From an uncultured Ruminococcus sp. (GTDB lineage: Bacteria > Bacillota_A > Clostridia > Oscillospirales > Ruminococcaceae), in contig CACZPE010000222.1 in assembly GCA_902782875.1 (NCBI GenBank), forward strand, positions 1-9,388: 9,388 nt of DNA. The letters are read 5' to 3'. Made by a program: the position numbers and the translations under genes. The notes below the pieces were generated by a model. The model searched no databases. It worked only from the letters and a program-made list of their open reading frames with translations, and was not told the DNA's origin. Positions 1-9,388 of the stretch are shown here, piece after piece (within the stretch, counting starts at the first letter, position 1; each line of letters opens with the position of its first letter).

Positions 1-2101
1 AGCCGAGTATGCCGAGACTGTGATAGAGCTCTGCAGTCAGCTGAGCGGCGGTGGATTTACCCGTGCCGGGATTTCCTGCCCAGATCATATGCGCAGGCCC
101 GGGGTATGCAAGCCCCTTCTCCATACATTCAACTCTCAGCGCGAGCTGGTCGTTGAACATATCCTCGAGAAACTCCATACCGATATAATCATGCAGCTTT
201 GAATAGATATCCTCAGCGGAGAAGCCTCTTTTCTCAAACAGAGCTTCTCTTGCCTCAAAATCGCAGCGCTCTGCGGTTATCACATCATCGCCCGTGAGCC
301 CCGAGCAGCTCCTGCGATAGGAGGCGGCACGCTTTACATCGCTTACGAGATTGTTTATATCCCTTGCATTACCGAAATTCTTCCTGTCGCGGTCGGCAAA
401 GAAATTCTCGAAGAATACCGGCAGACCGCTTTTCACATCATCAGAAAGAACGGTCCTTGTGCCGCTGATGCCCTCAGGCTCTCCGAACTGCGATTCAAAT
501 ATGCTCTGCAGCAGGGGAGGCTCATATTCCTTCAGCGTTATTATATTTGATGCCCCGAATCGCGAGAAGAGGCCTTCGTTCATCTTCCAGACCTCGTTCA
601 TGCGGTCGGCGTATCCTGCGAATATCACGCAGAAATGATAGTTCTTGTTGGTCATTGCCGCAACGATCGTGTTGAACACTTCATCGCAGTAGGATATGCT
701 GTTTTCGCCGCCCTGCTCGGCTATCGAGTATACCTCGTCCACGAGCAGAACGCCCTCCTGAGCTTCCTCAATAAGTGCGGCGGTGCGTATTGCGGTAGAA
801 CCGACATATTCGCCGACGAGCTTGTCGCGCGAGCCTATGACGGTGTGTCCCGAGCGGATGATGCCCTCTCTCTGGAGTATGCGCCCGATAATGTTTGCTA
901 TGGCGGTCTTTCCCACGCCGGGAGGTCCTTCAAGTACAAAGTTGGGAACACTGCCGCGGTCTGAGCTGTCTGATACAGGTTCAAAGCGGTCTGTGGTAAG
1001 CTCTTTTCTCTCAATGACAGCTGCACCGTCAGGATAAAGCATGCGCCAGCTTGATATGAAGCTGTTTATAACATTGTAGGCAGGCTCCCAGCCGCGCTTT
1101 TCACGCAGTATCTGCATAGGGTCGGTATCATCGCGTATACCCGCAGATGAATCGGGGTACAGTGCGGCTACGGTATCGGGAGTGAGCCATACTTCGTCTG
1201 TGCCTTCACTTTCCATATACCGCTCTATGATCTCTTTCATGGACTTGAGCTGCGTAAAACCGCTGTCACGGCTGCAGAAGCTGAGCATCCTGACTATCCT
1301 GCTGTGATCGCTTCTGTGAAAACGCAGGTATGCACAGTGTTCACCGCCGCGGGGGTCGGTATATCTGTGACCTGCTATGCGCAGGTATTCGAGCAGGTTT
1401 TCTATTTCGTCGTTGAGAGGAGTGCCGATGCAGAGGCTCGAATTGCGGTTGAACTCATTCTTTCTGAGAAAGAGGGATTCAAGCACGGCAACACGGTTGT
1501 CGTGCAGCATATTCTGAAGTCCGCAGGAGTCGAGAGTCTTTGAGAGGAATATGCATATATTCCTGTTTTCGTTGGGCAGAGACTTCCACTCCTCGAAACG
1601 CTCAAGCAGGCGCCTGCCCTCATCTGTAGTAGCAAGGCGTATCAGATCCTCAAGCGATGTGAACACTATCGCCTTCGGCTCTTCCGTATCGCGCATATAT
1701 CTGTCAGTCGCCGCGGAGAGCTGATCCTTTGCGATGCTGTGGGTATATTTGAGCTTTTCGCTTTTCTGCGGCGCAGGTATCGGTGCGGGTGCTGCGGGAG
1801 CATCATCATCAAGCCAGCTGTAATCGTCCGATGAGGCGGTGCTTTCAGGTGCCTTTACAGGTGCGGGATCTTTCTTTCCTGTCAGTACAGACATCGCACG
1901 TACGCCTGCAGGATCGGTGGCGTATACCATATTCCGCTGAGTAGAGCAGAATACTACTCCCGAGAAACCGAGATCCCTCAGCCTTATGCTCAGCAGTTCA
2001 TCAAAATTTACTATCCACCCGTTAGGCAGGCAGAAAATATCGCTCAGCTCGCCCGAAACGCAGAATATCCTTGTGGATGTATTGTTGAATATCGAGGACA
2101 T
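1..2101 (-). CDS. Multi-module AAA+ ATPase of CbxX/CfxQ (CbbX-like) type, 3' partial
   Basis: The frame runs from an ATG with GGAGG six bases upstream through the left window edge, giving 700 visible residues. Residues 1-245 look like a P-loop-less AAA+ module: SGELSDIFC stands where a Walker A would be, AIVFTSLEDLI (144-154) resembles Walker B, NICIFL (180-185) a sensor-1 strand and IGTPLNDEIENLL (225-237) a lid entry. A Pro/Ala-rich acidic linker interrupts it (about 79-115). The first complete AAA+ module has Walker A GPPGVGKT (392-399), Walker B VLLVDEVYS with Asp455 and Glu456, and GLFSRFG, an arginine-finger-like segment typical of CbxX proteins. A second module begins near 626 and has Walker A GNPGTGKS (676-683) before the sequence ends. 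CbxX-type ATPases usually form hexamers that remodel protein partners; CbbX itself reactivates Rubisco, but nothing here suggests Rubisco. It is probably the motor of the system. Confidence 0.92.
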   Translation of the reverse strand, partial: MSSIFNNTSTRIFCVSGELSDIFCLPNGWIVNFDELLSIRLRDLGFSGVVFCSTQRNMVYATDPAGVRAMSVLTGKKDPAPVKAPESTASSDDYSWLDDDAPAAPAPIPAPQKSEKLKYTHSIAKDQLSAATDRYMRDTEEPKAIVFTSLEDLIRLATTDEGRRLLERFEEWKSLPNENRNICIFLSKTLDSCGLQNMLHDNRVAVLESLFLRKNEFNRNSSLCIGTPLNDEIENLLEYLRIAGHRYTDPRGGEHCAYLRFHRSDHSRIVRMLSFCSRDSGFTQLKSMKEIIERYMESEGTDEVWLTPDTVAALYPDSSAGIRDDTDPMQILREKRGWEPAYNVINSFISSWRMLYPDGAAVIERKELTTDRFEPVSDSSDRGSVPNFVLEGPPGVGKTAIANIIGRILQREGIIRSGHTVIGSRDKLVGEYVGSTAIRTAALIEEAQEGVLLVDEVYSIAEQGGENSISYCDEVFNTIVAAMTNKNYHFCVIFAGYADRMNEVWKMNEGLFSRFGASNIITLKEYEPPLLQSIFESQFGEPEGISGTRTVLSDDVKSGLPVFFENFFADRDRKNFGNARDINNLVSDVKRAASYRRSCSGLTGDDVITAERCDFEAREALFEKRGFSAEDIYSKLHDYIGMEFLEDMFNDQLALRVECMEKGLAYPGPAHMIWAGNPGTGKSTAAQLTAELYHSLGILG

Positions 2102-2116
2102 ATGCAACCTCCGCCG

Positions 2117-3565
2117 TCAGGGCCTGTAAGTGTCGATCACGCCGGGATTCTTGCATCTCTGCCTGAGACCGAGAGCCTTGCCTACGGCAGAGCCCTTGAT
2201 CGCTTCGCAGTTTGCCAGACGTTCCTTCTCGCGGGCAAGCTCCACCTCGTCGAAGCCGCCCTCGTAGTCCGTGTGATCCTCTATGTCTATCTTCATATTG
2301 ACATGGCCGCCGCTCTCGTTTGCATCGAGGAAAAGATAGAGCCTTTCGTCCGTGCCGTCTTTCTGAAATCTCAGTACTATCCTGTCAAGGGGGGAGTACT
2401 CCTTATCCTTCTGTGTGAGAGGTATCAGACTGTACCCCTTTGATCTGTACCTTGCGGCGAGTACCTTTGCGGTTTCTTTTCTGAGCATCTCGTTATGCAT
2501 GCGCTCATACGCCGTGCGCGTAGATGCGGTGAAATCCGCTGCCAGCTTTGCGGTGCGAAGCCTTATATCACACAGCTCCTGTGCGGAGATATCGGCAGGA
2601 CTGCAGTCAAGCAGTCTTTCGAGTACCGCTATCTCTTCACCCGTGCGCTCATAGTCGCCGCGGTAATAATACGGCATATCATCGGTCTTCTTTATAACTG
2701 TTTCTCCCGAAGCAGTGCTGTCAGACTTAAGCTCGCCTGACTTTGAGTTTTCAAATGCCTCCCTCAGAGAGCGCAGGGCTGTTTTTGCGCTGACAAAGCG
2801 CTGTCTGTTAACTGCTTCGGATGTTATGATATCCTGCAGACGCAGATAGAATGCATCTTCGGCGGAATACACGTCTATCAGGGCAGCTTCGCTGAGTCCT
2901 GAGCGTATATTCTGTTCTGCCCTGTCGAGCATGCCCGAGCACAGCTTTACGGCTTCTGTCGCTTTTCTGCTCTCAGCGGTACTCAGTGCCGCCAGTGCTG
3001 ACCTGAGGGTTGCGATGGCTTTTTCTGCATATGCCACCGCCGCTGCCCTGCGCTCGTCATCATCAGCTGCACGGTTTATCTGAGCTTCTGCATCACGGCG
3101 CAGCAGGGCGTTCTGTGCGGTGCATTTCTTCATTTCGGAATCTATGACAGAGATGTATTTCTCGTCAAATTCACGCTGTGCAGCTTCCAGATCGGCGCAG
3201 AGCTTTTCAGCCGCCGCGCTGCAGTCTGCTATGAATATATCGGAATCACCGCTTTTTGTAAGCCGCCCCTCTATTTCCGACAGGGCTTCTGAGTACTGTG
3301 CGTTGATCCTACCCTGTGCGGAGCTAAGCTCGGCGGATATCTTCTCATCGAAATGGAATATATTTGTCATCGCGCTGTCAAGATGCTCATTCATACCCCT
3401 GAGTCTTGCATCCGTGACGGCGTTGCCTATAGCCTTCGGTATCGTATACGGCGCTGTAGCCACTCCGAAAACCAGCCTTCCCACAGAGCCCACGGTAAGT
3501 GAGAGCACTCCGTATGCCAGTTCGGCGATGAGCGGCACTGTTTCTATCTCGCCTGTATAGCTCAT
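2117..3565 (-). CDS. Helical coiled-coil protein with hydrophobic N-terminal segment
   Basis: This 482-residue protein is of unknown family. The N-terminus (about 8-50) is uncharged over most of its length and rich in Gly, Ala, Val and Leu (ELAYGVLSLTVGSVGRLVFG), which could insert in or lie on a membrane; it is not a classic cleaved signal peptide. Residues 55-275 are almost entirely helical, Ala/Glu/Arg-rich and coiled-coil-prone. A polar linker (about 273-298) leads to more helices and a small alpha/beta end, with strands such as RIVLRF (395-400), RLYLFLD (408-414) and HVNMKIDIED (421-430). A longer frame would start at 3616 inside the previous gene, but the ATG at 3565 has GAGGTG five bases upstream and is preferred. 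The gene starts 13 bases after the previous stop. Its architecture resembles that of its upstream neighbour. A membrane anchor or scaffold role is possible but unproven. Confidence 0.88.
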   Translation of the reverse strand: MSYTGEIETVPLIAELAYGVLSLTVGSVGRLVFGVATAPYTIPKAIGNAVTDARLRGMNEHLDSAMTNIFHFDEKISAELSSAQGRINAQYSEALSEIEGRLTKSGDSDIFIADCSAAAEKLCADLEAAQREFDEKYISVIDSEMKKCTAQNALLRRDAEAQINRAADDDERRAAAVAYAEKAIATLRSALAALSTAESRKATEAVKLCSGMLDRAEQNIRSGLSEAALIDVYSAEDAFYLRLQDIITSEAVNRQRFVSAKTALRSLREAFENSKSGELKSDSTASGETVIKKTDDMPYYYRGDYERTGEEIAVLERLLDCSPADISAQELCDIRLRTAKLAADFTASTRTAYERMHNEMLRKETAKVLAARYRSKGYSLIPLTQKDKEYSPLDRIVLRFQKDGTDERLYLFLDANESGGHVNMKIDIEDHTDYEGGFDEVELAREKERLANCEAIKGSAVGKALGLRQRCKNPGVIDTYRP

Positions 3566-3570
3566 GATAT

Positions 3571-3576
3571 CACCTC
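3571..3576 (-). promoter_or_regulatory. Ribosome binding site deciding the 482-residue protein start
   Basis: GAGGTG sits five bases before the ATG at 3565 and just after the TAA of the preceding gene. It supports this internal ATG over the upstream in-frame ATG at 3616, which falls inside the previous coding region. Confidence 0.75.
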
Positions 3577-3578
3577 GT

Positions 3579-4955
3579 TTAGTTAAGTCTGCCGTTTGCG
3601 AGCATGATCTTGTCATTGCAGACTGTCTTTACCCTGTCTGCCGTGGTCTGATCCGCTTCTGTCCTGCGGTAGTCTGTATCTATGCCCCTTGCGGTTATCA
3701 CCTGTGCAAGAGCTGTTCTTACTGCGTCATACCTGTCTTTTCCGATACCCTCGGGAACATAGCAGGACGCAAGATTTATCCATTTTTCGTCCGATCTGCG
3801 GAATACCGGGACTAAGATGAGCTCGAAGGTATGCACATCCATATCATCGGAGAATGTGATGATATGAACATCGCCGCTGTCTGTGAGCCTGCATGTGCAT
3901 CCTGCCTGTGCAAGGGATGAACGCAGCTGACGGTATATCTCAAGGCGTTCGTTCCACGCCCTCATGCGGCTGTGCATTACGGAAAAGAGCTTCTTCTCCT
4001 CTTTCTGTCTGTCAATTGCGGTGCGGATCATTTCGTACATCATGATATCGTCCGCCCTTGAAGCCATATCGGGCTTTTCTGTCATATATCTCCTGACATC
4101 GTCCTCGCTGTCGGGCATATCGCGCTCATATACCTGTGCTGCTTCGTCATAGCCTCTGTGCAGCGCGGAGTATCCGCCGTCGGTATACTTGTCGAGTATA
4201 TCATCGGAAAGCTTAAGATCACGTATCTTAAGGTATGCTCCAAAAAGCGGGATATCCTCGGGAAGTCTGTGAGCGGATACAAAAAGCTGTTCCTCTTCGG
4301 CGATCACGGCTTTGAGCAGTCTGTAGCTGTGAGACCATCTGCCGAATTTTTCCTCTGTTTCGAGTATATCAAATCTCAGCTGCATGAGTATATTGTCGCC
4401 GATACCGACAGCACTCTCGTAGAGCCCGTTTTTTATCCATCTGTCTATCTCGTCGGCACGTCTGCGGTAAAGTGCAAGATGCCCGGGCAGGAACCATTCC
4501 AGCGGCACATCAGATATCGCCTCCGCCAGCTGCCTGTTGAAGCGTGTTTGTATGTCCAGCGCCTGCTGTTTTGCGAATTCAAGGCGCGATCTGTACGCTT
4601 CTTCAAACTGCTGCTGCATAAGAAATATCTTTTCCCGTTCCTGCTGTTCAGCGGCAAGCTGCTCTGTAACCTCGGCACTCAGCTCGTCATACTCGTCCCT
4701 GAGGGAGGATATCCTGTCCTGCAGCTGCTTTTCTGTCTCGGACGTATGGTGTTCGAGTATGCTGCGGTAGAAGCTGTCTGTCTGTCTGTCATGTGAGTCT
4801 ATACGCTCTGCTATGCCGCCTGTAAGCTCTTTTATTCGCCGTGAGCTCTCCTCCACATAGTTTTCGCGTTCATTCTTCAGCTGTGCCTGCAGCAGATCTA
4901 TACGCTTGTCTATTTCGTTTTGTCTCAGCCGCAGTACGGAGATATCTGTAGCCAT
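3579..4955 (-). CDS. Coiled-coil protein with helical core and C-terminal alpha/beta domain
   Basis: This 458-residue protein has no family I can name. Residues about 5-145 are a long, charged, heptad-like coiled coil rich in Glu, Gln, Arg and Leu (for example LLQAQLKNERENYVEESSRR). It is followed by a conserved-looking hinge, PLEWFLPGHLALYRRRADE (150-168), and further helices to about 350. The C-terminus (about 350-422) alternates strands and helix: VHIITFS, TFELILVPVF and WINLASCYV, then a helix YDAVRTALAQVI. There is no signal peptide or membrane segment. A strong AGGAGG lies four bases before the ATG and overlaps the preceding TAG stop. The layout (coiled coil, helical middle, small alpha/beta end) is shared with the next protein, suggesting an ancient duplication. 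A structural or adaptor role in a complex with the Hsp70 and AAA+ proteins is an inference. Confidence 0.88.
   Translation of the reverse strand: MATDISVLRLRQNEIDKRIDLLQAQLKNERENYVEESSRRIKELTGGIAERIDSHDRQTDSFYRSILEHHTSETEKQLQDRISSLRDEYDELSAEVTEQLAAEQQEREKIFLMQQQFEEAYRSRLEFAKQQALDIQTRFNRQLAEAISDVPLEWFLPGHLALYRRRADEIDRWIKNGLYESAVGIGDNILMQLRFDILETEEKFGRWSHSYRLLKAVIAEEEQLFVSAHRLPEDIPLFGAYLKIRDLKLSDDILDKYTDGGYSALHRGYDEAAQVYERDMPDSEDDVRRYMTEKPDMASRADDIMMYEMIRTAIDRQKEEKKLFSVMHSRMRAWNERLEIYRQLRSSLAQAGCTCRLTDSGDVHIITFSDDMDVHTFELILVPVFRRSDEKWINLASCYVPEGIGKDRYDAVRTALAQVITARGIDTDYRRTEADQTTADRVKTVCNDKIMLANGRLN
4774..4790 (-). repeat. Short tetranucleotide tract (GACA x4) inside a coding region
   Basis: Four tandem copies of a four-base unit (CTGT on the plus strand, ACAG/GACA on the coding strand) lie within codons 56-61 of the 458-residue coiled-coil protein (DRQTDS). 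Gain or loss of one unit would shift the frame near the N-terminus. The tract is short, so it may be chance. Confidence 0.6.
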
Positions 4956-4963
4956 ATATCCTC

Positions 4964-5554
4964 CTATATTTCCGTGCGGTATCTTATAAGATCCTCGTGC
5001 GAGCGCCTTATCATGTCAGCTATCAGCTTTTCAGCCTTTGCAGCAGTCTCTCTTGATGTAAGAAGCTGCCTTGCCTCGTTTGCATCCGCTGTGTCGCCGT
5101 AGTATGACAGGAGCTTCAGGTCGCAGGCGATATTTTCGTCCGTGTCGTCATCTGTTAGCTGCTCTGTGCAGGAGGATGCTTCGCGGACAGGCGTATCAAC
5201 AGACATATCTATATCCCATCCGCCGTTTACTGCATTGAATCTTATCGTATCACTCATAAGACGGTTGCTGCCGAATTCACCCCTGAAAGCAGCCTGAGCG
5301 TCGGCAACAGCCCATCCGAGCAGGGGAAGGTCACCGAGCAGAGTATTTATATCCAGCACAAAGCTCACGGGTTCTCCTGTCTGTCCGACGAAGAGAGTGC
5401 CGCTGTCCTTGTTTGCGATGATTATCATATTTTCAGATGCGGTCTGACCGTCATTGGCGATAATCACTTTCCTGCCGCCTGCGGTCACAGTGAATTCGAT
5501 GCTGTCTGCGCAGTGCGCCCAGCCCGTGACAATAAAAACCTCGTTTGTTTTCAT
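4964..5554 (-). CDS. Uncharacterised 196-residue protein
   Basis: I do not recognise a family. Residues 1-125 look beta-rich, with alternating hydrophobic strands such as EVFIVTGWA, KVIIANDG, NMIIIANKD and VSFVLDIN, and with several Gly-Trp pairs (GW at 11-12, 80-81 and 112-113). A polar acidic linker follows (about 127-145, including DDDTDEN), then a helical, charged C-terminus (about 147-194) that could dock onto the neighbouring coiled-coil proteins. There is no signal peptide or membrane segment, so it should be cytoplasmic. Its ATG overlaps the radical SAM stop as ATGA, with AAAGGTG upstream, and it ends in a TAG that overlaps the AGGAGG of the next gene. The tight coupling says it belongs to the complex or pathway; the sequence alone does not say how. 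It could be an adaptor, or the target of the radical SAM enzyme. Confidence 0.85.
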   Translation of the reverse strand: MKTNEVFIVTGWAHCADSIEFTVTAGGRKVIIANDGQTASENMIIIANKDSGTLFVGQTGEPVSFVLDINTLLGDLPLLGWAVADAQAAFRGEFGSNRLMSDTIRFNAVNGGWDIDMSVDTPVREASSCTEQLTDDDTDENIACDLKLLSYYGDTADANEARQLLTSRETAAKAEKLIADMIRRSHEDLIRYRTEI

Positions 5555-6132
5555 ATCTGTGCACCTTTGTCTGTAAGCATATCTATCAGGGCTTTAGCAC
5601 CGTCTGACGGTATTCCTGTCATGCGGAAGCCCTTGTCTGTAAAAATGAAACGGTTCTGCCGTGATCTCGGCAGATCGTTTTCGGAGTATCTGTCTGTAAG
5701 AAAAATGAGCCGTTGGTTTGACGAGCCTCTCATAGGCCTGCCGTCATCAAGAGCTTCTATATATTCGCCGTCTATCAGCAGATCAATACGCCCTGTCAGA
5801 GGGTCTGCGGCGATATCCTCATAGGTGTATCCCGTGTAGCATATCACGCCTGTATCCGGTCTCTGCCCGCGCACCTTGTCAATGAGCGTACAAAGCGCTT
5901 CCGACTGCAGGAACGGCTCTCCGCCGCTTATCGTCAGATCTGCTCCTGAGGATATTATGATATCAGCAAGAGAGTTTACGGATATGCTCTCTCCGCCCTC
6001 GGGATCGCGAAGCGACGGGGCGATGCAGCCTGCACAGCTTTTATGACAGCCCTGCACCCACAGTGCAAAGCGCCTGCCGGGACCCAGATCTTCGGTTATG
6101 GTGTACCATGATATCCTGAGAGTATCGTTCAT
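5551..6132 (-). CDS. Radical SAM activase-like protein (NrdG/PflA type)
   Basis: This 193-residue radical SAM enzyme binds a [4Fe-4S] cluster through C29-HKS-C33-AG-C36, the canonical CX3CX2C motif. It carries the SAM-contacting GGEP (70-73), a YTGYT strand (99-103), IDGEYIE (120-126) and RGSSNQR (135-141). All are typical of short activases of the anaerobic ribonucleotide reductase and pyruvate formate-lyase type, and the length fits the minimal family. Known members abstract a hydrogen from a glycine in a glycyl-radical enzyme, via a 5'-deoxyadenosyl radical. No such enzyme is visible here, so it may serve an unlinked partner, or modify an operon protein. I chose the ATG at 6132 over one at 6165 because it forms an ATGA overlap with the upstream stop, has AGAGGT before it, and begins where the conserved fold begins. 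The fold is certain; the substrate is unknown. Confidence 0.93.
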   Translation of the reverse strand: MNDTLRISWYTITEDLGPGRRFALWVQGCHKSCAGCIAPSLRDPEGGESISVNSLADIIISSGADLTISGGEPFLQSEALCTLIDKVRGQRPDTGVICYTGYTYEDIAADPLTGRIDLLIDGEYIEALDDGRPMRGSSNQRLIFLTDRYSENDLPRSRQNRFIFTDKGFRMTGIPSDGAKALIDMLTDKGAQI

Positions 6133-8075
6133 TTTACCTCTGTCCTCACTGGTGATGTCTGCCATTCATCCTTGCCTGTAAGCTTTCCGATAAGACGGCC
6201 CACAGCGCCCCTGCGGCGGTGATATACGCATGAAGCGGTTATATTCCCGCTGCAGTTTATGTTAAATACCATCCTGTCGTTTTCTGTATCATACCCGTCG
6301 GGGAGCTCGGCTGTAACACAGCCTATATATGATATTGCACTGCCCTCGGGGTCAAAGGGGCTTTTTACGTGCTCCATGCCTTTTTTTCTGCTGTAAAGCT
6401 TCACGCAGAACTGCTTTCTGCCGTCCTTTTCTTCGGCTCTGAGCCCCTCTGAGGAATATGTGAAGCTGCATGCATCAGACGGGGTATCCGCCTTTATCAT
6501 CGGCGTGAATACGGGCATATTGCTGTTTATGGGGATATTAAGCACTCCTATGTCATAGGATACGGTGTTTTCTGCCCCGGGCAGGTCTGCACGGACTGCA
6601 CAGCCTCTTGCGGTTATATCCCTGCGTATATATTCGGGAGCGATATCATTTATCGTGAATATATCAAGACACGGCATACATGCGGCACCGCCCGCAACAG
6701 TGATGTGCTTTAGGTCGCTGCGCGATACCTTTGCGGTGCTGAGCGCTTCGTCTACTGCGCTGATAAGCTCTGTGACTACATCACGCACCATATTCTCAAA
6801 GCGGTAACGGTCATATTCAAGATTAAATACCTTTTTCTCACCGCCAAAGAAGAATTCAATATCCTCCGATGCGGATGATGAGAAGGAAAGCTTTTTTATT
6901 ATATTTTCCGCCGCTCTGTCCACAGCGGCGAGTGCTTCTCTGTGAAGCACTTCATCGGAAATATCCGTGTGATATGATATCCTGAGCTTTGATGTGATAT
7001 CATCTGCCAGGATACCGGTCATTTTCCTGCACAGCGGCACGGTTATGCAGCTGTCTGAATCAGTACCGTAGGCGCATATATGCGCATCGCTTCCGAGATA
7101 TGCAAAGAGCGCAGGGCGCTCATCGCCCGAGTATACAGACAATGCATCACCGAAGGGTATCGTGATGTCTGCATCATGCCATAATGTGCGGTCTGTCACA
7201 GCAGTCCTGTCAGCGGACGGGTCATACCCGTTGTCTCTGAGTATGCGCTGTATTTTTTCGGATATGTCATCAGCACCGTATACGGGGATATAGCTGCCGA
7301 TTTGTGCACCGATATCCGAAAGAGTGCCGTCTGTATCAAAAAGCGCCGCCGACAAATGCGAGAGAGCATCAAATGCGAATATCCTCCCGCCTGTTTTTCT
7401 GTCTCTCCGCTCGTCAGCCGACTGTTCGGTAAGTACACAGCCGCAGCTGTAGCCTATGAGCTTTCTGCGGTAGGGTATCCTTATGTTCCCGTCCGATGGG
7501 TATATCCTGTCGGCTCCAGTGCCGTGCGCGGCGGGGGTATAGACAGTATATGCATCGTCGAGGGATATCTCTTCCGAAAAAAGTACTGTCCCGGTCTGCT
7601 TTTCGGTATAATCGATCCTTGCCTTTGAACGGCAGGAGTGTGCGAGTGTGTCGAGCGCCTGCAGTGCGGTAAGACGTTTTTCGGGGAGTATGCGCGTCAT
7701 GCTGCGTATCAACTCATCTGCGGAAGATGACGGGCATGAGCACAGACTTATACTCTCATCGCCCTGTGCGCCGAGAAGAAGCAGCGCGGAATTTGCAAGG
7801 TCAGGCAGTTCGCCGCTCAGCTTGTGACAGAGCATCATGCCTGCTGCAAAGACTGCATCCGACGGTGTGCCGTCGGCCTTCACGGGACGGTAAATCTCGT
7901 CAAAGCCCGCCGACTTCGTAAAGACAAGCTCTCCGTCCTCTATAGCGATATCCGACGGGTCTGTGTATACAGCACCGCTTTTGTCAAGATATGCCAGATA
8001 CTGCGCAAATATATCCGCCGTATCGCCTTCGTTTATATCATAAGCCCGTATGCCGAGCCATTCTTTCAGGGTCAT
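6129..8075 (-). CDS. Pseudokinase C-lobe fused to degenerate Hsp70-like protein
   Basis: This 648-residue protein appears to be built from two decayed ATP-binding folds. Residues 1-147 follow the order of a protein-kinase C-lobe: an LKEWL helix like alpha-D (3-7), YLAYLDKSG like alpha-E (26-34), VYTDPSDIAIEDGEL where HRD..PeNil is expected (36-50), KSAG in the DFG position (54-57), SDAVFAAGMMLCHKLSGELP like alpha-F with its invariant Asp73, and ILPEKRLTALQAL (129-141) with the conserved Arg134. The N-lobe is absent and the catalytic residues are lost. From about 231 an Hsp70 pattern appears: FAFDALSHLS where DLGTT belongs, AYLGSDAHICAYG (325-337) where GGGT belongs, TGILADDI (353-360) for the GGDD motif, then an adenosine motif ITVAGGAACMP (458-468) and RDITARGCAVRADL. 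A substrate-binding-like beta domain follows (VFTPMIKADTP). The start is supported by GGAGGT five bases upstream. It is probably a catalytically dead scaffold or regulator of the upstream Hsp70. The Hsp70 part is fairly sure; the kinase part is likely but rests on motif order alone. Confidence 0.85.
   Translation of the reverse strand: MTLKEWLGIRAYDINEGDTADIFAQYLAYLDKSGAVYTDPSDIAIEDGELVFTKSAGFDEIYRPVKADGTPSDAVFAAGMMLCHKLSGELPDLANSALLLLGAQGDESISLCSCPSSSADELIRSMTRILPEKRLTALQALDTLAHSCRSKARIDYTEKQTGTVLFSEEISLDDAYTVYTPAAHGTGADRIYPSDGNIRIPYRRKLIGYSCGCVLTEQSADERRDRKTGGRIFAFDALSHLSAALFDTDGTLSDIGAQIGSYIPVYGADDISEKIQRILRDNGYDPSADRTAVTDRTLWHDADITIPFGDALSVYSGDERPALFAYLGSDAHICAYGTDSDSCITVPLCRKMTGILADDITSKLRISYHTDISDEVLHREALAAVDRAAENIIKKLSFSSSASEDIEFFFGGEKKVFNLEYDRYRFENMVRDVVTELISAVDEALSTAKVSRSDLKHITVAGGAACMPCLDIFTINDIAPEYIRRDITARGCAVRADLPGAENTVSYDIGVLNIPINSNMPVFTPMIKADTPSDACSFTYSSEGLRAEEKDGRKQFCVKLYSRKKGMEHVKSPFDPEGSAISYIGCVTAELPDGYDTENDRMVFNINCSGNITASCVYHRRRGAVGRLIGKLTGKDEWQTSPVRTEVK
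6136..6141 (-). promoter_or_regulatory. Ribosome binding site deciding the radical SAM start
   Basis: AGAGGT lies three bases before the ATG at 6132, which itself overlaps the upstream stop as ATGA. The alternative ATG at 6165 has only a close, weak AAGG. The site therefore favours the 193-residue product, which begins at the conserved fold. Confidence 0.65.
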
Positions 8076-9388
8076 CCGTTACCTCCGAGCCTGACATCAA
8101 GTTTGTCAGTCCTGCCCTTCTGTTTTACCGTGAGATCGAGTATCTTGTCCTCGCTGAAAGCCGCCTGGAGTATGAGCTTTGCGGGCTTTCTGCCGAATAC
8201 CGAGAAGGTTCTTTCCGCCAGGGGTATATCACCTGAGAGTATCACCGTATACCTGTCGGGGGAGAATTCCCCGCTGTACTCGACTATCTGTATCCGCACG
8301 GCTGTGGCGCTGCTGTCTGCAGGGGAGAGCTCCGCGGTGAATATCTCACCTGTCTTTACGGTTGAGCCCTCTCTGATGATGTTCTCTACCCCTCGGCCGT
8401 TGTCCTTGAGAAGGCCTATTGAAGTGTATGCGCGGTTCTCTACCGCAAGCTTCAGATCGCTGTTGCATATCGCCGCGCCCTTAGAGACAAGGTACATGGC
8501 ATCATCGGGAACAATAAGCCTGTTTTCGCCGAACATGCGTATGAGTATACGTCTGAGGCATATCTCATGTGCCATGCCGCCGACAACGATCACATGGTCA
8601 ACGTTTTTCGGGGAATAGCCCGTGCCGACGAATATATTCCCCAGGCAGCGTTCATAGCGCTTGTTTATATCCGCCATAAGGGAGGTGTATTCATCGGGAG
8701 TGAGCGAGAAATCAAGATCGGCATCGCCGTACAGATCGCGTATATATGCATACGCGGGACGGTCGGGCGATGAGTAAAGCTGTTTTTTTATATCTATCGT
8801 GAGTGCGCGAAGACGCTGTGCCGAAAGGGATATCCTTTCGTCACGGAACTGTGTGCCCTGCGGATGGTCGAGGGGTATGCCGCCTGCCTTTACAAAAGTG
8901 TCTGACATAGCCTTTATAAGCAGGTCGTCAACGTCATTTCCGCCGAGATGCATATCCCTGCCGTGGCCTACGGGCTCGAGCCTCTCCGCTCCTGTGGAAG
9001 CACCGACTATGCCTGTTTTCAGAAGAGACAGGTCAAAGGTGCCGCCGCCCATATCTACCACGAGAACGAGTCTGTCGCCGTCAAGCCTTGTGCCGTAGGC
9101 GACTGCGGCGGATATGGGCTCATCGGTGAGACAGTTCTCGTCTGTCTCAAAGCCTGCCGCCTTCAACGCCTGTTTTGTGGCTACCCTTGCACGGGTCATG
9201 AAGCCGGTAGGTACTGTTACGAATGCGTTGAATACCGCCTCCTCCGGAAAATGCCTCTCCAGCTCATTGTGCACCTCGCGGAGAATATGCGCGGTTATTT
9301 CCTCAGCGGTCATTGTAAGGCCGCCTATATAGTATTCCTTGTCGGGCTCGGGCATATTTGACTTTGCATCGCATACCACATCATCGGG
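8072..9388 (-). CDS. Hsp70/DnaK-like ATPase, 5' partial
   Basis: This is an Hsp70-family chaperone ATPase. The reading frame is open through the window edge, so the true start and the first nucleotide-binding motif (GIDLGTT type, roughly 90 residues in a typical Hsp70) lie outside; the GTG at 9379 is not a credible start. Counting from that GTG, the protein shows an AFVTVPTGF strand (about 52-60), a TDEPISAAVAYG segment (85-96), the phosphate-2 motif VVDMGGGTFDLSLL (107-120), LGGNDVDDLL (145-154) and the adenosine motif VIVVGGMAHE (263-272). A compact beta-rich tail follows, consistent with a substrate-binding beta domain, and the protein ends without a long helical lid. The proline normally found after the adenosine motif (GGSSRIP) is replaced here. 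Its stop overlaps the next start as ATGA, which couples it to a second, degenerate Hsp70. Family assignment is secure; client and role are unknown. Confidence 0.93.
   Translation of the reverse strand, partial: PDDVVCDAKSNMPEPDKEYYIGGLTMTAEEITAHILREVHNELERHFPEEAVFNAFVTVPTGFMTRARVATKQALKAAGFETDENCLTDEPISAAVAYGTRLDGDRLVLVVDMGGGTFDLSLLKTGIVGASTGAERLEPVGHGRDMHLGGNDVDDLLIKAMSDTFVKAGGIPLDHPQGTQFRDERISLSAQRLRALTIDIKKQLYSSPDRPAYAYIRDLYGDADLDFSLTPDEYTSLMADINKRYERCLGNIFVGTGYSPKNVDHVIVVGGMAHEICLRRILIRMFGENRLIVPDDAMYLVSKGAAICNSDLKLAVENRAYTSIGLLKDNGRGVENIIREGSTVKTGEIFTAELSPADSSATAVRIQIVEYSGEFSPDRYTVILSGDIPLAERTFSVFGRKPAKLILQAAFSEDKILDLTVKQKGRTDKLDVRLGGNG

Follow-up and report, generated by a model that had tools for sequence, protein, structure and literature searches.

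We analysed a 9,388-nucleotide stretch of DNA from an uncultured Ruminococcus sp. (contig CACZPE010000222.1 of assembly GCA_902782875.1; hereafter the window), which forms one operon with every gene on the minus strand. The gene of interest (6129-8075, minus strand, ATG at 8075) encodes a protein of 648 residues, denoted the fusion protein, in which a predicted protein-kinase C-lobe is joined to a degenerate Hsp70, and the gene directly upstream of it encodes a canonical Hsp70, denoted HspA. A first-pass annotation made from the letters alone had placed such a fusion at 6129..8075. These coordinates are right; the annotation gave no strand, and the plus strand of the same interval is interrupted by stops in frame 1. 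HspA and the parts of the fusion protein are arranged as follows.

8072..9388, minus strand: HspA, canonical Hsp70 with a nucleotide-binding domain (NBD) and the beta part of the substrate-binding domain (SBD-beta); Pfam HSP70, E 1.3e-34; 5' end cut by the window
7629..8075, minus strand: fusion protein residues 1-149, predicted C-lobe-only pseudokinase (alpha-D to alpha-I), without N-lobe, HRD or DFG
7392..7628, minus strand: fusion protein residues 150-228, beta-strand linker domain without a family match
6576..7391, minus strand: fusion protein residues 229-500, shortened and degenerate Hsp70 NBD, phosphate-1 replaced and phosphate-2 deleted
6132..6575, minus strand: fusion protein residues 501-648, Hsp70 SBD-beta without the alpha lid, from DnaK alignments

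The alignments comprise 11 full-length copies of the fusion protein, that of the window and those of 10 genomes (loci designated by L numbers). A single-sequence Pfam search of the fusion protein returned no kinase at E ≤ 1, and the kinase claim therefore needed profiles and structure. With hhalign, the 11-sequence profile matched a profile of nine PF00069 kinases at 96.3% probability (pairwise E 1.6e-9, without database correction), against 0.3% for the reversed control and at most 2.0% for 10 column shuffles. The nine kinases were those passing a motif filter out of 27 PF00069 matches, and L111 and L112 look like one gene. The N-terminal profile also retrieved PknB-type kinases in six-frame genome scans: 44 stretches were found at E ≤ 0.01, some of them one gene fetched twice (e.g., L024/L039 and L025/L042), with an HRD-type kinase motif in 31 and, among the 13 without it, DFG in five. 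The predicted domain superposes on residues 98-278 of PknB, and the 50 best matches listed in each structure search were all kinases or kinase-containing proteins, with PknB on top. TRIB1 was among the structural matches, and TRIB2 matched weakly (E 0.23). In the relative L032, a sub-threshold Pkinase match (E 0.021) occupies the collinear position. Taken with the controls at noise level, these matches make it scarcely credible that the N-terminal region resembles a kinase C-lobe merely by convergence of helices, and the profiles and predicted model together show residues 1-149 to have a protein-kinase C-lobe fold running from alpha-D to alpha-I.

The register agrees between the hhalign alignment and the PknB superposition: LKEWL corresponds to alpha-D, VYTDPSDIAIEDGEL to a remnant of the catalytic loop and beta7-8, SDAVFAAGMMLCHKLSG to alpha-F, and PEKRLTALQAL to alpha-H/I carrying the conserved Arg. 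This is the order from alpha-D to the Arg of the last helix that had been proposed for residues 1-147. Neither HRD nor DFG occurs in any of the 11 orthologs, as the first reading had it for the window, while the alpha-F Gly and the alpha-I Arg are kept in all 11. We relied only on these two residues because two hhalign alignments disagree by one column over the position of two others, a Pro close to APE and an Asp close to alpha-F. The N-lobe, with its glycine-rich loop and lysine, had also been called missing, and the open reading frame indeed begins at alpha-D. In the window its start codon lies where the HspA gene ends, with one in-frame codon upstream before a stop; across the 11 loci, in which the starts of L002 and L032 were picked from the alignment, this number ranges from 1 to 47. 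The predicted model places strands at 150-217 of the adjoining linker, and residues 150-228 gave no credible sequence match in Pfam or the PDB.

The resemblance to PknB, a kinase whose C-lobe forms a dimer contact through alpha-G, raises a further explanation, in which the C-lobe would bind a host PknB-type kinase or its activator as a decoy or sensor and report the state of the cell wall to the chaperone machine. The PknB matches at the top of the structure lists fit this idea, as do the full-length PF00069 kinases found in six of six system-carrying genomes searched (for the kinase domain only). However, PknB may be just the closest bacterial kinase of solved structure, and the alpha-G stretch is variable in the family and partly missing in L083 and L033, so that we regard the idea as rather doubtful.

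The Hsp70 half begins where it had been proposed to, at about residue 231. Pfam HSP70 matches residues 357-531 (E 2.1e-11), and the predicted model matches Hsp70 NBDs, which have the actin-like fold, over 229-501 and NBD plus SBD structures over 229-648. The profile and structural checks returned kinase C-lobe and Hsp70 matches and, for residues 1-149, no unrelated fold among the structures listed. Structural alignments of SBD-beta to DnaK reach residue 648, and the SBD-alpha lid is absent, the chain stopping after SBD-beta with 623-633 as its sole late helix. The region around KKGMEHVKS is a long invariant run in the three closest copies.

The phosphate-binding glycines are lost, as first noticed: the phosphate-1 loop reads FDALSH in the fusion protein of the window, compared with IDLGTTN in neighbouring Hsp70s, and the phosphate-2 loop (DIGGGT) is missing together with adjoining NBD segments, leaving the NBD of the window copy and its close relatives about 100 residues short. 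Judged from these motifs, the fusion protein of the window has probably lost the ATP-binding site of its Hsp70 half. Among the relatives the phosphate motifs are near-canonical in L032 alone (IDFGTWTT and DIGGGTSD), altered in L033 and L080-L083, and deleted in the clade of the window. The loss most simply arose within the family, since L032 keeps its phosphate loops. Alternatively, the Hsp70 half might still cycle on nucleotide by itself, with the motif changes tolerated and the C-lobe a mere appendage for solubility or localisation. The motifs of L032 would suit this explanation, as would the adenosine-side GG kept in 9 of 11 copies, including the window (VAGGAACMP); the replaced phosphate-1 loop, the deleted phosphate-2 loop and the shortened NBD of the window and its close relatives make it unlikely.

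In all 11 loci the gene immediately preceding the fusion gene is that of HspA, at a distance of -14 to +10 bases; in the window the two genes share 4 bases, the stop of the first overlapping the start of the second. Partial HspA copies are those of the window, L072 and L081; the window copy is 86% identical to the full-length copy of L001 and has an intact DMGGGT. Wherever the region is present, the HspA motifs are kept (phosphate-1 in 8/8, phosphate-2 and adenosine in 10/10). The pair of HspA and fusion genes is kept in clusters with the AAA/radical-SAM module and in two without it.

The fusion gene itself is under apparent constraint. All 11 aligned copies are open with no internal stop, and GGAGG lies just 5' of the start in 10 of the 11 loci. 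Between the window and L001, the ratio of nonsynonymous to synonymous substitution rates (dN/dS) was about 0.12 for the C-lobe, 0.18 for the pseudo-NBD and 0.16 for SBD-beta; these values are rough because synonymous change approaches saturation (0.60-0.80 differences per synonymous site), and they could be computed for three domains, the beta domain (150-228) being excepted. A pseudogene or an assembly artefact was rejected in view of the architecture common to the 11 loci and the low dN/dS where computable. Gradual decay of an ancestral kinase-Hsp70 fusion that is losing function and has no role of its own would account for two halves without catalytic features and for the large NBD deletions in the clade of the window. 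The open frames, the preserved GGAGG and the low dN/dS in the three domains render it very improbable. Given the conservation and the low dN/dS, the suggestion of the first-pass annotation that the protein is purely a binding or regulatory platform may reasonably be retained.

The relatives came from several samples. A scan of genome contigs gave two, with 63% and 39% identity, in Oscillospiraceae metagenome-assembled genomes from ruminants. With N-terminal profiles, strong matches (E below 1e-13) were found in 4 of the 396 family genomes and in 4/20, 1/43 and 5/38 genomes of three genera, each count taking in the centre genome. The centre genome alone matched strongly among 394 genomes of the order (runner-up E 1.2e-5) and among 391 of the class (runner-up E 5.7e-4). 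The alignments leave out P0004 (a partial protein of 179 residues) and P0005 and P0006 (Hsp70-family matches, E 7.7e-6 and 5.1e-4), and L079 was left out of the loci, being equal in length to the contig of L002 and taken to be identical with it. In the protein database searches about 8,000 candidates were scored and relatives were probably crowded out; one such search used a short query and a length window without full-length proteins. With a profile of the AAA N-terminal region, the centre genome was the sole match among 291 class genomes, and the system therefore looks rare. A plasmid or phage origin was rejected after tblastn, with no match among 72,556 plasmid records, and after a search of viral contigs that found no relative, the latter being weak with one pattern searched. 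The genes form a rare, conserved Oscillospiraceae operon. Downstream of the fusion gene, the window contains the following.

5551..6165, minus strand: NrdG-like radical-SAM activase-type protein; Fer4_12, E 4e-31; NrdG, E 6.8e-26, under cut-off
4964..5554, minus strand: P197, 196 residues, family not recognised, operon-conserved
3579..4955, minus strand: CC1, coiled-coil-like protein 1, coiled coil judged by eye, weak matches, operon-conserved
2117..3616, minus strand: CC2, coiled-coil-like protein 2, coiled coil judged by eye
2..2107, minus strand: AAA+ ATPase of CbbX/SpoVK/EccA type; AAA, E 2.4e-16; SpoVK, E 4.7e-43, under cut-off; 3' end cut by the window

The radical-SAM gene comes next after the fusion gene in 9 of 11 loci; its product in the window has CxxxCxxC, and no glycyl-radical enzyme was recognised among the window proteins. 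P197 gave no match in Pfam and NCBIfam at E ≤ 1. CC2 as listed overlaps CC1 (3565-3616), and the MSYTG start common to the relatives lies 51 bases further in. The AAA+ copy of L001 is full-length and tandem (914 residues). In the window (2-9388), L001, L032, L033 and L082, the cluster runs from a transmembrane protein through HspA, the fusion protein, the NrdG-like radical-SAM protein, P197, CC1, CC2 and the tandem AAA+ protein to a DO-GTPase-like protein and unknown proteins. A GNAT acetyltransferase gene lies between the AAA+ and DO-GTPase-like genes at L001:18827-19270, in L001 only among the 11 loci. In a second type of cluster (L081 and L083), the GTPase part follows the fusion gene directly, with a zinc-ribbon and transmembrane protein (judged by eye) and then the DO-GTPase-like gene. 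The AAA gene was found in four of four other genomes checked and not in those of L081 and L083, which are drafts, so that its absence there is uncertain.

The DO-GTPase-like gene was seen in relatives, the window ending before it, and shares a cluster with the HspA/fusion pair wherever the contig extends that far. Three homologs scanned matched DO-GTPase2 at E 5.9e-5, 8.6e-4 and 0.016, all under the curated cut-off, so that the similarity is suggestive only. The zinc-ribbon and transmembrane protein directly upstream of this gene occurs at L083:4814-5383, L081:7553-8122, L086:1-588 and L088:2007-2600. After it come adjacent proteins of ~325 and ~350 residues, P325 and P350 (L001:20634-21611, L083:478-2573, L086:2841-4856, L088:4749-6846), which have no convincing Pfam match and are candidate GAP1-like partners; five copies of P325 gave no GAP1 match at E up to 10. 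A protein of roughly 290 residues after the DO-GTPase-like gene was considered as a second, dead GTPase and dropped (hhalign 0.7%). A known anti-phage defence system was considered as well, and for 10 proteins scanned PADLOC gave partial matches to single components alone, the best being IetA (4.3e-9) on the AAA+ protein.

The first-pass annotation knew of no such architecture, which holds in part. A single-chain combination of kinase and HSP70 has already been published for one Pirellula protein (gi|32474490; PMC1262709), which by its description carries an Hsp70-like domain C-terminal to a Ser/Thr kinase domain; compared with that description, the fusion protein has a C-lobe-only, dead kinase, a degenerate Hsp70 and a gene tied to an operon. 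The doubly degenerate, C-lobe-only form was not described among the literature matches listed, in which most subscription papers were not covered, and appears new. In the passages covered, Kaur et al. 2020 (PMC7159879) describe DO-GTPase systems that contain a single Hsp70 gene or a pair of them and MoxR-vWA ternary systems in which most kinase domains have disrupted catalytic residues. Their GAP1-N2/DO-GTPase systems resemble the present clusters, with their DO-GTPase-like gene, in that an Hsp70 and a further Hsp70-like gene lie close to a DO-GTPase, in hosts that include firmicutes and in a zinc-ribbon/transmembrane protein (here by eye), and an Hsp70 gene is in the neighbourhood in all 11 of our loci. 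However, their second Hsp70 lacks a peptide-binding domain whereas the fusion protein keeps SBD-beta, those passages describe no kinase-Hsp70 fusion (PMC7159879), and our DO-GTPase match is under the Pfam cut-off with no GAP1 match found.

PknB/PASTA Ser/Thr kinases share the C-lobe fold and sequence profile with the fusion protein, which differs in having no N-lobe, HRD or DFG and, among its recognised domains, no PASTA repeats. Tribbles pseudokinases likewise use a dead kinase fold as a scaffold, but keep the N-lobe. Ssz1 and Hsp110 are atypical Hsp70s serving a canonical Hsp70; they are eukaryotic and have no kinase lobe.

With moderate confidence, we propose that the fusion protein is a non-catalytic partner of HspA, whose dead Hsp70 half would regulate HspA and whose C-lobe would dock other operon products or a cellular kinase. 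A regulatory heterodimer is most simply suggested because a dead Hsp70 is strictly paired with a live one, and a docking role because the kinase C-lobe is dead. The most likely partner of the dead half is HspA, whose ATP cycle or client choice it would set, by analogy with the control of canonical Hsp70s by Ssz1 and Hsp110, while SBD-beta of the fusion protein may still hold a client segment. The PknB-type C-lobe could serve as a surface tying the chaperone pair to the AAA+ ATPase, the radical-SAM protein, the DO-GTPase-like protein or a cellular kinase. Several points weigh against this proposal: the partnership is read from gene order, the structure predictions were of monomers, neither J-domain nor GrpE families were among the neighbours scanned by Pfam, the dN/dS values have the limits given above, and the near-canonical phosphate motifs of L032 mean that not every member of the family need have given up ATP. 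More tentatively, the operon may encode an uncharacterised bacterial machine, in which a live/dead Hsp70 pair with a PknB-like C-lobe adaptor would act together with the AAA+ and radical-SAM proteins, a DO-GTPase-like switch and possibly PknB-type signalling. The data do not distinguish between roles in defence, envelope stress or assembly.

The fusion protein joins in one chain two nucleotide-dependent enzymes that are unrelated and have each been stripped of catalytic features, and its relatives display differing extents of loss in the Hsp70 half. A C-lobe without an N-lobe at low dN/dS offers a test of half a kinase fold as a stable docking module, and because the protein is strictly paired with an intact Hsp70, the idea of a live/dead Hsp70 pair in bacteria can be tested directly. 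If the more tentative reading is true, the machine would represent the Ssz1/Hsp110 principle in bacteria, with a kinase lobe as its adaptor.
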